Below are positions 13,373 to 20,501 of a stretch of DNA of 37,928 bases, piece by piece. Source of the DNA: Archaeoglobus sp. GTDB taxonomy: Archaea > Halobacteriota > Archaeoglobi > Archaeoglobales > Archaeoglobaceae. The stretch covers positions 1 through 37,928 of the forward strand of contig JACDNU010000022.1 of NCBI GenBank assembly GCA_017656505.1, read 5' to 3'. Made by a program: the position numbers and the translations under genes. The notes beneath the pieces are model-generated. The model was given only the letters and a program-made list of their open reading frames with translations. It did no database searches and was not told the DNA's origin. Each line of letters opens with the position of its first letter. Positions within the stretch are counted from its first letter, which is position 1.

Positions 13373-13819
13373 TTACTGCATTATCTGATCGAACTCCACA
13401 AAATCAGGGGATAGCTCTTCTTCCTGCCCCGCCTCATCCAAAACTTTTTCCTCGATGTAGATCGGGCAGGCCATTCTCACGGCCATCGCTATGCTGTCGC
13501 TTGGCCTTGCATCGAGCTCGATTTCGTGATCGTTCTGTTTGAGAATTATCCTTGCATAGAATGTGTTGTCAATTAAGTCGTCAATCACAATCTTGTTAAT
13601 CGTCGTTCGAAGCTTTTTGAGGATCTCGGCCATCAGATCGTGGGTCATTGGACGCGACATCATCTTGTTCTTCAGAACGGAATGGATTGCCATCGCCTCA
13701 GAAATTCCAATGTAAATCGGCAAAAACCTGCCGTCTTCCGCCCTGAGCACAACTACTGGCGACAAGCCCATCACACTCGGGGCTGCAAAAACACCATACA
13801 CTTCAGCTACCTTTTCCAT
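13373..13819 (-). CDS. Bifunctional nuclease family protein (DUF151)
   Basis: The 148 aa protein matches the DUF151/bifunctional nuclease domain: a start with GLSPVVVLRAEDGRFLPIYIG, followed by RPMTHDLMAEIL and the conserved ELDARPSDSIAMAVR block. Plant members of the family have DNase and RNase activity; the role in archaea is not established. The C-terminus is acidic. A TTAAATAT element (13839-13846) about 20-27 nt before the ATG overlaps the end of the molybdopterin oxidoreductase gene upstream and suggests its own leaderless promoter. Confidence 0.85.
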   Translation of the reverse strand: MEKVAEVYGVFAAPSVMGLSPVVVLRAEDGRFLPIYIGISEAMAIHSVLKNKMMSRPMTHDLMAEILKKLRTTINKIVIDDLIDNTFYARIILKQNDHEIELDARPSDSIAMAVRMACPIYIEEKVLDEAGQEEELSPDFVEFDQIMQ

Positions 13820-13838
13820 TAATAGATTGTAGGTTATG

Positions 13839-15917
13839 TTAAATATTAATAGTTTTTTGTGATGAAGCTTTGGGATTATCAGCCTTCATCGCAAGCAATG
13901 CCTTAAGTTCAGGACAGCCGGAAATAGCATCGGCAGGTTTTCTTGAGGTTAGCAGATTAACGTTCGCGTTATCCCAGCCATGGGGAATATTTATCACCCC
14001 CTTAGCAATCCCATCGGTCAGCTTTGCTTTTACTTCAATGCTCCCCCTCTCAGTCTCGACGACCACAACCTCCCCGTCTGTAATTCCGTAATTTCCAGCC
14101 GTCTCAGGATTGATTTCGACGTAAGCTTCGGGCAAGAGTTTGGTCAACCTCTCCACATTCCTGAGCTGGGAATGGGTAAAATACAGATCTCTCGCTCCGG
14201 TTGTTAGAATAAGTGGATACTTCTCAACCTTATCTGTGTAAGGCGACTCAGATGGTTCCTTAGGTGTTGGAAGAGCATCGTAACCTTTCTCCGCCAGAGT
14301 TTGGGAATAGAGCTCAACTCTCCCGCTTGGAGTCCTGAATCCTTTATCTTTGTATTCACCGTACCTCACTTCTCCTGCCCACACTCCAGATGGATACTTG
14401 TCGGTTAAATCTGAAACGCTGTATCCAGTGGGTTCAAGCACGAAATCCAGCAACTCTTCAACGCTTTTCCAGGGGAAGTATTCTTTATACCCCATTTTTC
14501 TTGCAAGCTCCAACCAAAATTCAACATCGCTCTTAGCCTCCCCCAGAGGCTCGATCACTTTCTTTCTCAGAATCATGTACGGTATGCCAAAAATAACGCT
14601 GTAGTAGTCAACCAGTTCCAGCCTTTCCAGAAATGATGCTGCCGGCAGGAAAAGATCTGCATGTTTAGCAGTTTCAGTCATGAAAAGATCCATAACAGCC
14701 AAGAATTCAACTTTCTCCAGCATCTCCTTAACCTTCTCAGATTCCGGTCACGTTAGAATCGGATTCGATCCGGCAATGAAGAGGGATTTTATCTCATAAG
14801 GCTTGCCTTCCAGAATCGCATCATAGAGATACATCCCCTGTCCCTCACCGAGATGCGTTTTCCAAACCTGATAGAAGAGGGGATGCTGTTCTATTCCGAG
14901 AGGAAGCTCTTTCAGCAAATGAGGCAGGCGAAGGTTTCTTGTGTGAACTCTGGAGGCTCTCACAAATCCTCCTTTAACGTCAATGTTTCCGGTTAACGCA
15001 TGCAGAATTGCAACGCTCCTCGAATTCTGAATCCCGGAAGGAACCTGATCCAAGGCGTTAACACCCTGAACTATGCATGCAGGTTTTGTAGTCGCAAAGG
15101 TTCTTGCTATCTCAGCTATTGTTTCCCCCTCAACCCAAGTTCTTTCTGAAATTTCGGTTAAGCTGTATTTTGAAACATGATTTTTAAGTTCGTCAAAGCC
15201 TTGGCAGTAATTGGATACGAAATCCCTGTCGTAAAGTCCTTCCTCAATTATCACCTTCATCAGACCCAAAGCAAGATAGATGTCGCTTCCAGGCCTTATA
15301 GCGGCATGAATGTCGGCCATCTTTGCAACCCTCGTCTTCCGGGGATCGATAGCTATTAGCCTTGCTCCCCTTTTCCTCGCCCTCTCAATCATCCAAGCCA
15401 TAGGTGGTTTTGAAGCGTGGGGATTATGGGCCCACACTATTATGCATTCCGCATTCTCCACATCCGCTACCGGAAACTTGCCCAAAGTAAGGATGTAGCC
15501 GATTATCTGATGCCGGTAGCACATACTTTCCGGAGAAAAGCAGTTTGGAGTGCCATAAACATCCATAAAACGCCTTATAAATCCCACAGTTGAGGAGCCT
15601 CCCAAAAGAATGGGCATTCCTATTATGGTTGCAAAGGATTTCGGGTTTTCGAGATCTCTGAGATTTTCGGCAACCATGTCTATCGCTTCATCCCATTCGA
15701 TTCTTTTCCACCTGTCACCCTCCCTACGCATTGGGTGGATGACTCTATCCTTCGCATAAACGTAGTCGGCTGAAACGCTTCCTTTCGGGCATAATCTACC
15801 CCTGTTGAGGGGATGCTCTTTCATTCCTGAAACCTTAACAATTTTTCCGTTCTCAACCTTAACGTCCATTCCACAGTTCCAGGCACAGAGCTCGCAGGCG
15901 GTTTTGATAACTTCCAT
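13839..15917 (-). CDS. Molybdopterin oxidoreductase interrupted by one in-frame TGA
   Basis: Reading through a single TGA (14748-14750) gives one 692-codon frame of normal length for a DMSO-reductase-family enzyme. The N-terminal [4Fe-4S] motif is C8-x2-C11-x3-C15 with C43 in LCPKG. C133 in ESMCYR is the likely Mo/W ligand. The SNPILT segment is cut at the stop; the next codons lead into LEKVEFLAVMDLFMTETAKHADLFLPAASF, the normal continuation. The C-terminal domain with INPETAGNYGITDGEVV is intact. No second lesion was noticed. The C-terminal half has an ATG at 14723 but no properly spaced ribosome binding site. The substrate is unknown, and no iron-sulfur or membrane partner is adjacent. TTTAAACT at 15941-15948 suits a leaderless start. 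It could be a recent pseudogene, a readthrough gene or a sequencing error. Confidence 0.85.
14748..14750 (-). other. In-frame TGA codon within molybdopterin oxidoreductase
   Basis: The codon context on the minus strand is ATT CTA ACG TGA CCG GAA TCT. Related enzymes usually have a sense residue here, often Trp in a TWPxS context, so a TGG to TGA change would explain it. The position is far from the Mo-ligand Cys (residue 133), so a selenocysteine role is unlikely. Confidence 0.8.
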
Positions 15918-16008
15918 GATTAAACCGTTAGATCAATCATTTTAAACTTTTTTGAGAGGTTGGAAAGCTGAAACCGAATCGAAAAAGAAAAAGTGAGAAA
16001 ACAATTTG

Positions 16009-17061
16009 TCACCCTATTTCCCTGAAATAAGGAATTATGTCCTCTCCGTAAAGCCTCAAAGTCTCTTTCGGATTTCTGCCAACGTTTATGAGGATGAAAT
16101 GCTCCACTCCTGCTTTTGCAAATTCCTCGATCCTCTCGATGCACTCATCCCTGCTTCCCATGATGGCAAATTCATCAGCCAGCTCATAAGGGATTTTGGG
16201 AATTAACTCCATAAGCTTGTTCTCTGTATCTTCACCGGGTATAAGCTCCTTGAAATAGAATTCGTCTCCGATTTCTTCAATTTCAACCTTGTAGCCACCT
16301 TCTCTGAGTTTCTTTAGCCCTCCAAGCAGCATAACGATTGGAAACATCCTCGCAAAGTTAAGCTCGTCCTCTTTATCCGTTACAGCCGTGTAAATCTGCA
16401 AGGCCATATCTATTTCTTCCAAGCTCCTTCCAGCCTTCTTAGCTCCTTCTCTCACATCTTCCAGATTTTTTGCATAGGTTTTCGGGCTCTCAGCAAGGGG
16501 AATCCATCCGTCGGCAATCATTCCCGTAAGAAATCTTGTTTTCCTGCCATTTGCCCCGATATAAAACGGAATCTTACTCCTCGGCTTAATCTGGAGGTAT
16601 GCATTTTTAAGTCGGTAGAATTCACCATCGTAACTTACCTTCTCTCCACTCCAGAGCAACCTGCATACCTCGATGAACTCAGCCATCTTCTTAACCGGCT
16701 TATTTCTCCATTCTATGCCGAATGGATCAAGATTCATAGCTTCTCCGGCTCCTATCCCGATCGCTAATCCACCCCTCGCCATGTTCTCGATCGTTGCAGC
16801 CATCTGGGCGAAAACGGCTGGATGTCTTCTATGCGGGCAAGTAACACCACTCCCAATCCTTAAATGAGTTTTCACGGCTAAAGCGGAGATAACACTCCAT
16901 GCATCGGGGCAGTAGCCTTTAGGATACATGAGCAAGTGATCGGGAAGCCAAAGGGAATCGATAGGATAGCTCTGCATTCTTTCTGCAAGTTTGAACAACC
17001 TTTCAATGGGTTCTGGAGCAGGAAATGGCAAAAGCATGCTGAATTTCAGCTCTCGCTTCAT
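16009..17061 (-). CDS. F420-dependent oxidoreductase of the luciferase-like family
   Basis: The 350 aa protein is a TIM-barrel luciferase-like monooxygenase family member. Signatures include SLWLPDHLLMYPKGYCPDAW (residues about 36-55), RIGSGVTCPHRRHPAVFAQ, the GIGAGEAMNLDPFG block (about 99-112) and IPFYIGANGRKT. This branch in archaea uses reduced F420 and includes methylene-tetrahydromethanopterin reductase (Mer) and F420-dependent dehydrogenases. The sequence is not close enough by eye to call Mer. AGGTGG (minus strand of 17066-17071) precedes the ATG and a TATTTAAAGG stretch lies behind it, so it likely has its own promoter. It lies between the MoeA fusion and the molybdopterin oxidoreductase on the same strand. 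Confidence 0.8.
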   Translation of the reverse strand: MKRELKFSMLLPFPAPEPIERLFKLAERMQSYPIDSLWLPDHLLMYPKGYCPDAWSVISALAVKTHLRIGSGVTCPHRRHPAVFAQMAATIENMARGGLAIGIGAGEAMNLDPFGIEWRNKPVKKMAEFIEVCRLLWSGEKVSYDGEFYRLKNAYLQIKPRSKIPFYIGANGRKTRFLTGMIADGWIPLAESPKTYAKNLEDVREGAKKAGRSLEEIDMALQIYTAVTDKEDELNFARMFPIVMLLGGLKKLREGGYKVEIEEIGDEFYFKELIPGEDTENKLMELIPKIPYELADEFAIMGSRDECIERIEEFAKAGVEHFILINVGRNPKETLRLYGEDIIPYFREIG

Positions 17062-17146: not shown

Positions 17147-19105
17147 TCAGAGTTTTATGATCTCCCCCGTCCGCTTGTAGATTTTCAAGCCAGGAGGGAG
17201 GGAGTTGCTGAGCTCGTCGGAGGTCAAAACCTCCATAAACTGCTGTATTTTCCACGTGCTGAACTTCGCCTTAGGAATAAGAAAGTCGTATTCTTCTCCC
17301 CTCAGAGGGATGAAATCCAAACCGTACTGCTCAGCAACCGTTCTAATCCCAATTCCAGCATCAGCCTTTCCCATTAAAACTGCAACAGCAACGGAGCTGT
17401 GGGATTTTGCTTCGATTGTGTAACCCTTTATCTTGCCAGTTAATTCCTTGAACTTCTCACCTCTTTTCTCTGCTATTTCTTTGAGATACATGTCAAATAG
17501 AATTCTCGTTCCTGAGCCTCGATTTCTGTTAACAATTCTCGTTTTCTTTTCAATTATGTCTTCAACGCTCCTTATCCCCAGAGGATTTCCTTTGGCAACG
17601 ATAATTCCTTGCTCCCTCAGGTATCCTTTGACGAGAACAGCATTTTTCACGCCGTATCTCTTTAAGTAAGGGACATTATATTCAGCGCTCTCATCCAGCA
17701 AATGTATCCCGGCTATATCAGCCTCACCCCTCTTTATAGCTGAAATACCCCCAGAAGAACCGACATTTATAATCTTAAACCTCAGATCTGGAATTCTTTT
17801 TCGCAAAAGCCGGAAAATTACATCGAGCCCTATGCAGTGGCTCCCTATCACCATCAAATCAGCGGGCTTAATCTCCTCGCTGAAAAGTTTCACTGTAAAC
17901 CTCTCCCCCACTTCAGCGATCACTTTTTCCGCCGGAATGTGAATAAAGCCATCACTTTCCGCCAGCGATGTTATGGCTCCTGAATAGTGGCCGGAAACTG
18001 GATAAGCAGAGAATCCTTCCTCGCCGCTAACCAAATTAACGGGGAGAAACTCCGTTTTTCCGCTTGATGAGAAAACCTTTACAGCGAGCTTTGCCTCAAT
18101 TTCGGTGCTTTTTTCTTCTCCCAAGCCGGAAAGTCTTCTTATTAGGGGGCTGACGAAGATGCTGTAGATCATGAGGGCAGAAGTTGGATTTCCCGGCAGG
18201 CCGAAGGCAGGTTTGTTGCCAAGCGATGCGATTATCGTTGGCTTTCCCGGCCGGACAGCTATTCCATGCACAAGCACTCCCGGCTCCCATTCATCGAGAA
18301 TTCGGTAGATCATGTCCCCTGCTCCTGCAGAGGTTCCACCAGAGCATAGAATTATATCATAATCAAGAGCCTGCTCTATCATCTTTCTGATCTCATCAGC
18401 ATTATCTCGGGCTATCCCCAAAAATACAGCCTCTCCTCCATCCTCCTCTATCGAATTCATTAGAGTATAAGCGTTCACATCGTAGATTTTGCCCTTCCCC
18501 AGTTTTCCTCCCGGCTTGACAAGCTCATTACCAGTTGAGAACACCGCCACCTTCGGCTTCGAATAAACCTCAACCTCAGCTATACCTAAAGCGCTTAGGA
18601 CTCCAATCTCTCTCGGGGATAAAACCGTTCCTTCTCTGATTACAAGCTCTCCAGCCATTATATCCGAGCCGGCGAACATTATGTTCTCTCCCGGAGCAAC
18701 AGATTTGTAAATTCTCACGAATCCATCTGATTCAGCTGTGTATTCCTCCATCACAACGGCATTCGCTCCCTTTGGAATCGGAGCTCCGGTTGATATCTCT
18801 ATCGCTTCCCCTCTCTTCAATTCTACCTCCAAAAAATCTCCGGCACCGATTCTTCCCACGATTTTAAGCTTTACCGACGAATCTTCCTCAGCTTCAAATG
18901 TGTCCTCCGCGATAACAGCGTAGCCATCCATTGTTGATCTATCAAAGGGGGGAACATCTATCCCAGCCTCATAATCCCTCGCCACAATCCTGCCAAGAGC
19001 GTTTTCAAGCTTTATCTCCTCTACTTTCCGGGAAACAGCAAAGCTTTCAACAATCGACTTTGCCTCCTCAACTGATACAAGATCTTTGAATACCTTTTTA
19101 CTCAT
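17147..19105 (-). CDS. MoeA fused to a periplasmic-binding-protein-like domain
   Basis: The 652 aa protein has two parts. Residues 1-400 are a MoeA molybdopterin molybdenumtransferase, with PPFDRSTMDGYAV, the CSGGTSAGAGDMIYR motif and GLPGNPTSALMIY. Residues about 415-640 resemble a type 2 substrate-binding domain (LMVIGSHCIGLDVIFRLL, GGISAIKRGEADIAGIHLLD, NRGSGTRILFD) without signal peptide, so it is intracellular. The family is known in archaea as MoeA/LysR substrate-binding-domain proteins. It should insert molybdate or tungstate into adenylylated molybdopterin; the added domain may sense the oxyanion or a cofactor form. Its AGGTGA site overlaps the end of the preceding moeA, which lies 4 nt away, so the two are cotranscribed. 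Confidence 0.9.
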   Translation of the reverse strand: MSKKVFKDLVSVEEAKSIVESFAVSRKVEEIKLENALGRIVARDYEAGIDVPPFDRSTMDGYAVIAEDTFEAEEDSSVKLKIVGRIGAGDFLEVELKRGEAIEISTGAPIPKGANAVVMEEYTAESDGFVRIYKSVAPGENIMFAGSDIMAGELVIREGTVLSPREIGVLSALGIAEVEVYSKPKVAVFSTGNELVKPGGKLGKGKIYDVNAYTLMNSIEEDGGEAVFLGIARDNADEIRKMIEQALDYDIILCSGGTSAGAGDMIYRILDEWEPGVLVHGIAVRPGKPTIIASLGNKPAFGLPGNPTSALMIYSIFVSPLIRRLSGLGEEKSTEIEAKLAVKVFSSSGKTEFLPVNLVSGEEGFSAYPVSGHYSGAITSLAESDGFIHIPAEKVIAEVGERFTVKLFSEEIKPADLMVIGSHCIGLDVIFRLLRKRIPDLRFKIINVGSSGGISAIKRGEADIAGIHLLDESAEYNVPYLKRYGVKNAVLVKGYLREQGIIVAKGNPLGIRSVEDIIEKKTRIVNRNRGSGTRILFDMYLKEIAEKRGEKFKELTGKIKGYTIEAKSHSSVAVAVLMGKADAGIGIRTVAEQYGLDFIPLRGEEYDFLIPKAKFSTWKIQQFMEVLTSDELSNSLPPGLKIYKRTGEIIKL

Positions 19106-19109
19106 TTTT

Positions 19110-20387
19110 TCACCTGAAGAAGTAATTTATTAGCCTGATTTCCACCTCTTCTCCCTTCTCAATTCCCTCTTTCTCTTCAGGAACCTCTATAATTCCGTGG
19201 GCCTTTGAAAGGGAAGAAAGAATGCCTGAACCAGAAGTCCTTATTGGGTAAGCCATTAGCCTGCCATTTTCCTCTCGCAAATAGGCCCTAGTAAATGTCC
19301 TCACACCAGCATTAGACGGGATTCTCTCACCCGCGAAAGCTTTTATCATACTCCCCGGCATGTAAAAATCGTTGAAATCGATTCCACACATTTTGAAAAG
19401 TACTCTGGGGAAAAGAAGATTAAAGGCGACGTAGGTTGCCACGGGAAAGCCGGGGAGAAGCAAAATCGGCTTACCCTTTATGGATGTGAAGCCAGCAGGC
19501 ATTCCGGGCTTAATAGCGATGCCATGTATGAATTCGCTGTCTCTAAACTCCTCTATGATTATGGGCAGAAGATCTTTTTTCCCAACAGAGGTCGCACCGC
19601 TGAAAACAAGCATATCTGCCCTTTCTAAGGCAAAACGGATGGTTTTTCTAAGAAGTTCCGCATCATCTTTCACAATCCCAAGATCGAGCGGTTCAGCATT
19701 GAACTGCCTAACCAAATTAATCAGCATATATCTGTTGGTGTCTAGGATCTTGCCTTTTTCGATTTCAGTTGAAAGAGCATCAACCAACTCGTTTCCTGTA
19801 GAGGCAACACCCACAATCGGCCTTCTAAAGACCTTCGGCCTTAGATTTCCAGAAGCAGAGAGTAAAGCAATATGATGGGGCTGAATCACCTCACCTTTCC
19901 TCAGAACGATTTCACCTCTCCTTACATCTTCTCCGGCCCTCGAAACGTTTTTCCAAGGTGGAATTGAAGAGTAAACCTCGATGTAGTCTCCTTCGAGCTG
20001 AGAAGTGTGTTCGATCATTACAACTGCATCAGCATTCTCCGGCATCGGAGCTCCTGTGGAGATTCTTATTGCTTCCCCCTCCCCTAAATCTATACCCGCA
20101 TTCTCGCCAATCTCCACCTCTCCAACGACTCTGAAGATTACTGGGTTGCTAACACCCGCTCCAAAGGTTTCCTCAGCCTTCAGAGCATAACCATCCACAG
20201 CCGAGCGATCGAAGGGGGGGATATCTCTTTTAGAGAATAAATCTTCAGCACAAATCCTGTTTAAGGAATCCCGGAAATCTATCACCTCAATCGGCAAAAG
20301 ATTTAGTTTGAGCTGCCTGAGCTTTTGAAAAGCCTCTCCGACTCTGTGAGTTTGTAGAAAGCCTCTCTGCCTCACATCTTCAGCCAT
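19110..20387 (-). CDS. moeA: Molybdopterin molybdenumtransferase MoeA
   Basis: The 425 aa protein is a single MoeA: PPFDRSAVDGYALKAEE near residues 57-73, STGAPMPENADAVVMIE, a VFSGATSVGKKD motif and LLPGFPVATYVAF. It catalyses the final metal insertion step of molybdenum or tungsten cofactor synthesis. Two different MoeA proteins in tandem are common in archaea and may divide Mo and W. The ATG at 20387 is preferred over an in-frame start at 20435 because ATAAATTG (20411-20418) forms a minus-strand TATA box 24-31 nt upstream and the family N-terminus begins there. It is divergent from aIF2-beta and heads the molybdenum block. Confidence 0.9.
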   Translation of the reverse strand: MAEDVRQRGFLQTHRVGEAFQKLRQLKLNLLPIEVIDFRDSLNRICAEDLFSKRDIPPFDRSAVDGYALKAEETFGAGVSNPVIFRVVGEVEIGENAGIDLGEGEAIRISTGAPMPENADAVVMIEHTSQLEGDYIEVYSSIPPWKNVSRAGEDVRRGEIVLRKGEVIQPHHIALLSASGNLRPKVFRRPIVGVASTGNELVDALSTEIEKGKILDTNRYMLINLVRQFNAEPLDLGIVKDDAELLRKTIRFALERADMLVFSGATSVGKKDLLPIIIEEFRDSEFIHGIAIKPGMPAGFTSIKGKPILLLPGFPVATYVAFNLLFPRVLFKMCGIDFNDFYMPGSMIKAFAGERIPSNAGVRTFTRAYLREENGRLMAYPIRTSGSGILSSLSKAHGIIEVPEEKEGIEKGEEVEIRLINYFFR

Positions 20388-20501
20388 CGGATAACAGGTG
20401 GCGAGAAAGCATAAATTGTTATCGCTCGTAAGCAAAAGCCTGAGAAAGGCTGAGAAAAGATTATTAAATTTGAGGTGAAATAGCCTTTAGGAGGTGCTAA
20501 G
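20388..20501. promoter_or_regulatory. Divergent promoter region between moeA and aIF2-beta
   Basis: The minus-strand TATA box at 20411-20418 serves moeA. On the plus side GATTATTAAATTTGAG (20459-20474) is a TATA-like stretch and GGAGGTG (20490-20496) a strong ribosome binding site 5 nt before the GTG start of the aIF2-beta gene. AAAGCCTGAGAAAGGCTGAGAAAAG (about 20433-20457) holds a near-duplicated GCCTGAGAAAG/GGCTGAGAAAAG element. Confidence 0.5.

Follow-up and report, generated by a model that had tools for sequence, protein, structure and literature searches.

The window, that is, the whole stretch of DNA that was analysed (37,928 nucleotides of Archaeoglobus sp.), contains a Mo/W oxidoreductase gene. 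In all probability this gene was gained horizontally by its heat-loving archaeal host, was dispensable to it and was inactivated very recently by a single change of a Trp codon to a stop. Judging from the sequence comparisons, ordinary and very recent gene death is the most likely explanation, rather than a special reading of the genetic code; readthrough and a split enzyme are possible readings which found no support. The gene carries an inactivating lesion and its orthologues are intact, as is the case for recent pseudogenes.

In detail, positions 13839–15917 of the minus strand form a single frame of 692 codons, and its sole interruption is a TGA at codon 390. Along the frame, 389 codons are followed by the TGA, eight sense codons, an ATG, 293 codons and a TAA. 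The features of the locus, all on the minus strand, are the following:

13373–13819 (minus): bifunctional nuclease domain protein (PF02577), right-hand neighbour of the ancestral empty site
13839–13875 (minus): junction, with the last codons and stop of the joined frame inside the conserved promoter-like region upstream of the bifunctional nuclease gene
13839–14723 (minus): lower piece, 294 aa from a conserved internal Met, with the end of PF00384 and the dinucleotide-binding domain PF01568
14748–14750 (minus): in-frame TGA, codon 390, Trp in 9/9 orthologues
14748–15917 (minus): upper piece of the Mo/W-bisPGD oxidoreductase, 389 codons and the TGA, with the Fe4S4 domain (PF04879) and most of the molybdopterin domain (PF00384, profile positions 1–270)
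16009–17061 (minus): F420-dependent LLM-class oxidoreductase, left-hand neighbour of the ancestral empty site
17147–19105 (minus): MoeA-type molybdopterin biosynthesis protein, long form (PRK14498)
19110–20435 (minus): second MoeA-type protein

The joined protein is a cytosolic-type Mo/W-bisPGD oxidoreductase of the DMSO reductase superfamily, with the Fe4S4, molybdopterin and dinucleotide-binding domains in order. With the TGA read through, PF04879, PF00384 and PF01568 each exceed the gathering score. PF00384 spans the break, with profile positions 1–270 in the upper piece and 284–352 in the lower, while PF04879 precedes it in the upper piece and PF01568 follows it in the lower. An alignment of 10 sequences shows no variation at the FeS cysteines (C8, C11, C15 and C43) or at the putative metal ligand, C133, which aligns to the ligand region of the structure 2e7z. 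The model of the formate dehydrogenase alpha subunit (TIGR01591) gave 411.8 bits, under its curated cut-off of 666.25. By overall sequence, acetylene hydratase is the best solved relative. The structure model of the joined protein is of low confidence (mean pLDDT 60.6).

A sequence-only reading of this DNA had described a lone in-frame TGA within 14740–14760, splitting an otherwise intact molybdopterin oxidoreductase, with both halves in the same frame and eight sense codons before the next Met. All of this is confirmed, and no further lesion was found in the joined frame beyond the TGA. The intact FeS motif, Mo-ligand region and C-terminal domain that it reported, as well as the two neighbouring MoeA genes, were also recovered. 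Its claim of a normal length needs a small correction: the 692 aa of the joined protein slightly exceed the 680–689 aa (approximately) of the orthologues, because the final ~12 codons are flanking promoter DNA. It was also right that the C-terminal half has no spaced ribosome binding site, since an AGGAG abuts the post-break ATG with a gap of 0 nt. The Met at this position is kept in most orthologues and thus is not evidence of a newly evolved start. Two facts were out of reach of that reading, namely the lineage-specific insertion of the gene and the break in a second paralogue.

Nine orthologues, 69–83% identical, are found in Archaeoglobaceae and one sister family. Each of them has Trp at the site of the TGA, which supports the Trp-to-TGA change that had been put forward as one cause. 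The orthologue of F. placidus (G015) is intact and shows 78% identity over its whole length. Internal TGA codons had been suspected in the orthologues of G015 and G025 and proved to be terminal stops.

The stop aside, no decay is seen in the window gene. Seven full-length orthologues agree at 365 columns, and at six of these the window gene differs, a number similar to the others; all six changes are conservative (L/M, T/S, E/D, R/K, K/R and P/A). Neutral drift since the lesion would be less than about 0.7% per site, a rough bound which allows up to six excess changes. The absence of a second lesion suits a base-call error or readthrough equally well. In G247, the orthologue has a frameshift near codon 68 (L162:2900–3200) within a fragmented assembly in which BzdO was not found, and this frameshift may be a loss of its own or an error of the draft assembly. 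A scan of the genome contigs for homologues returned distant relatives alone.

Comparison of the loci shows that the oxidoreductase gene is an insertion specific to this lineage. In G001, G002 and G005, the gene of the LLM oxidoreductase is adjacent to that of the bifunctional nuclease, with nothing comparable between them. In the close relative G003, which has 98% identity in the nuclease protein, the same gap is filled by a gene for a multihaem cytochrome, located on the opposite strand. At the nucleotide level, the window resembles the congeners over the nuclease gene and across its upstream element ACAAAAAACTATTAATATTTAA, as far as about 13860–13872. In the window, the oxidoreductase frame takes its final residues and its stop codon from this element. 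Since the joined frame ends in the conserved upstream region of the nuclease gene, the inserted gene has lost its own stop on insertion. The upper piece is 84.7% identical to the gene of G017, a member of another genus, and this is the top of 76 reciprocal hits between the two genomes, with a median of 55.8%. The simplest reading is horizontal gain. The gap that the oxidoreductase gene entered (window 13820–16008; L210:7952–9839; L211, L212 and L213) is, in its own right, a gene-gain site of the genus.

The neighbours of the intact gene point to aromatic metabolism. In F. placidus, G017 and G025, its cluster also contains HAD genes, a gene for a UbiX-type flavin prenyltransferase and one of the benzoate-CoA ligase family, the last of which exceeds the TIGR02262 cut-off in F. 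placidus. The UbiX and HAD neighbours are retained in G247, and in G037 the enzyme gene is closely followed by benzoyl-CoA reductase genes of the bzdN/bzdO type. The enzyme was found in 10 of 394 genomes; BzdO is present in nine of these 10 versus six of the other 384 (Fisher p about 1e-13, with shared ancestry ignored). Based on these neighbours and this co-occurrence, a peripheral or accessory role of the intact enzyme in anaerobic aromatic-acid (benzoyl-CoA) metabolism is suggested. BzdO without the enzyme occurs in G001–G004, G006 and G027. The first four are congeners of the host, which argues that the enzyme is dispensable to the benzoyl-CoA pathway. The host genome itself has BzdO (79% identity), so that loss of the whole aromatic pathway, considered as a cause of the break, is unsupported; no close orthologue of the benzoate-CoA ligase was found in it (best 31–34%). 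The genome retains benzoyl-CoA reductase and MoeA, and the enzyme could still be useful to the host. Loci with the intact enzyme and aromatic-metabolism neighbours are located at L096:5863–11337, L095:8981–14597 and L099:9094–15358.

The host assembly is a draft of 95 contigs (2.52 Mb, estimated 99.6% complete). In a survey of lesions, 712 kb of it were compared with genes of the congener G005 and other relatives; shadow ORFs, which dominated the first pass of the homology scan for broken genes, were removed. Among 176 comparable reference genes (52,309 aa), internal breaks were confined to the window gene and one multi-lesion remnant, and two further cases were shifted C-terminal stops. Errors in the assembly are thus rare, and it looks accurate. 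The remnant (L062:15958–17060), with four stops and a frame change, resembles a 374-aa ORF near the G034 locus (L098:2726–3850) and is an old pseudogene.

As for the decoding of TGA, this codon terminates 156 of 423 long genes of the host. The tRNA-Trp has a CCA anticodon, a normal anticodon stem of 5 bp and a 63-nt intron after the anticodon (L064:15681–15818, minus strand). An altered code, in which UGA would specify Trp, is ruled out by TGA being an ordinary stop and by this normal tRNA-Trp. The selenocysteine and suppressor tRNA genes that the sequence-only reading had proposed to look for were not found: neither tRNA-Sec nor SelB is above cut-off in the host genome, and a UCA anticodon occurs in none of the 43 tRNAs detected by ARAGORN, a list which is not exhaustive (a few expected isoacceptors are missing). 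The stretches read by ARAGORN include all 41 genome-wide Rfam tRNA hits. The RNA downstream of the TGA shows no significant structure (z −0.5 to −1.6). The nucleotide after the TGA is C, as in eight of the 156 genuine TGA stops, and a weak leakiness of this UGA-C context is possible. A scan for in-frame stops by codon usage discriminated weakly and did not recover the window case itself.

A single wrong base is the chief rival to recent inactivation. The gene would then be intact in the organism, and the TGA would stem from an error of base calling or consensus, or from a mixed assembly that contains a minor strain variant. Only one base separates the TGA from an open frame, in a draft genome and in a sequence otherwise free of decay. 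However, no other lone stop or frameshift was seen in the comparable genes, and the Poisson 95% upper bound for striking a given 692-codon gene is ~4%. An error of sequence, which had been listed among the causes, is thus possible but made less likely by the survey, and it is considered rather unlikely. Readthrough had been listed as well and has no positive support. It would require a leaky UGA-C, perhaps read by the near-cognate tRNA-Trp(CCA), which yields some full-length enzyme and keeps the gene under selection. The rarity of C after real stops and the lack of decay are in agreement with it, and other residues are tolerated at the site in paralogues (Leu in the C11 group). Against it, no special tRNA was found among those detected, the anticodon stem of tRNA-Trp is normal, the sequence past the stop has no significant structure, and the C is part of a Pro codon that the orthologues share, so that it was inherited and not newly selected. 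On balance, readthrough is decidedly improbable. Selenocysteine at the TGA has a negligible probability. Formate dehydrogenases with Sec are known from the wider enzyme family, but the machinery mentioned above is not detected and the TGA occupies a Trp position without any Sec/Cys exchange among the orthologues, 257 residues from the metal-ligand Cys133, which is itself still Cys. The selenoprotein reading is refuted by these results.

A second broken gene of the same genome bears on the possibility of a functional split. The C11 paralogue (L003:672–2709, equal to G000 C11:23910–25947, minus strand) has one break, an extra base in an A6 run, at C11:24742. Four orthologues (G003, G036, G025 and G037) are intact, and the locus is syntenic with G003. 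In terms of homologous positions, this break and the window TGA are ~six codons apart, and here also the lower piece starts at a conserved Met. The chance of two breaks this close is about 2%, as calculated post hoc, and selection for a tolerated split site would explain their near coincidence. In such a case, two pieces would be made by termination-reinitiation, which is known in archaea (PMC6728339), and would then assemble, with the C11 paralogue split likewise. Nevertheless, the break falls inside one Pfam domain, the restart in the window gene has no spaced SD, both Met codons are ancestral, and a stable split at this place is seen in no relative. In addition, according to the low-confidence model, the lower piece would begin inside a predicted helix of a strand-helix-strand unit. 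A functional split gene is hence credited with a very small probability. It is also very improbable that the two Mo/W oxidoreductase paralogues share a hinge position at which this genome can tolerate or exploit breaks (TGA in the one, a +1 shift on A6 in the other), via split pieces or low-level recoding at both. The breaks of the window gene, the C11 paralogue and G247 are regarded as having arisen separately, each as a loss in an enzyme family that is dispensable; for G247, a draft-assembly error is possible. Readthrough or a working split enzyme, if true, would be a surprise for archaeal translation.

For the preferred reading, recent inactivation of an acquired gene, the following course of events may be proposed. 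In the lineage of this genome, a Mo/W-bisPGD oxidoreductase gene, the donor of which would be another Archaeoglobales lineage, entered the gap that separates the LLM oxidoreductase gene from the bifunctional nuclease gene, as the empty site of the congeners and the junction show. Its lack of decay suggests that it kept its coding function for a time, before Trp codon 390 would have turned into TGA very recently. Translation would stop after 389 residues, and the product should be inactive, without the last part of the molybdopterin domain and the dinucleotide-binding domain. The loss should be tolerable, as the other benzoyl-CoA-reductase genomes of the genus are without the enzyme. The remainder of the gene may be intact because too little time has passed since the lesion. 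The locus would thus offer a clean and datable case of an acquired archaeal catabolic gene at the moment of its loss, with the insertion site still readable. The intact relatives provide a lead of another kind, since they suggest a candidate uncharacterised Mo/W enzyme in the anaerobic aromatic metabolism of hyperthermophiles.

Compared with known systems, the enzyme shares with the archaeal FdhA-like and acetylene-hydratase-like members of the DMSO reductase superfamily (PDB 2e7z and 7bkb) the Fe4S4 motif, the Cys metal ligand region and the molybdopterin and dinucleotide-binding domains, in a full-length alignment. It differs from them in being under the formate dehydrogenase cut-off and in its neighbours in relatives, which indicate aromatic-acid metabolism and not formate. 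The orthologue of F. placidus, in contrast to the window gene, is intact and stands beside the benzoate-CoA ligase family, UbiX and HAD genes. The window gene is similar to the recently formed pseudogenes of horizontally acquired prokaryotic genes (van Passel et al. 2008, PMC2275313), which are also genome-specific and have a single inactivating lesion in a lineage-specific acquired gene. It differs from them in its archaeal host and in a lesion so fresh that reads are needed to tell an error from a mutation.
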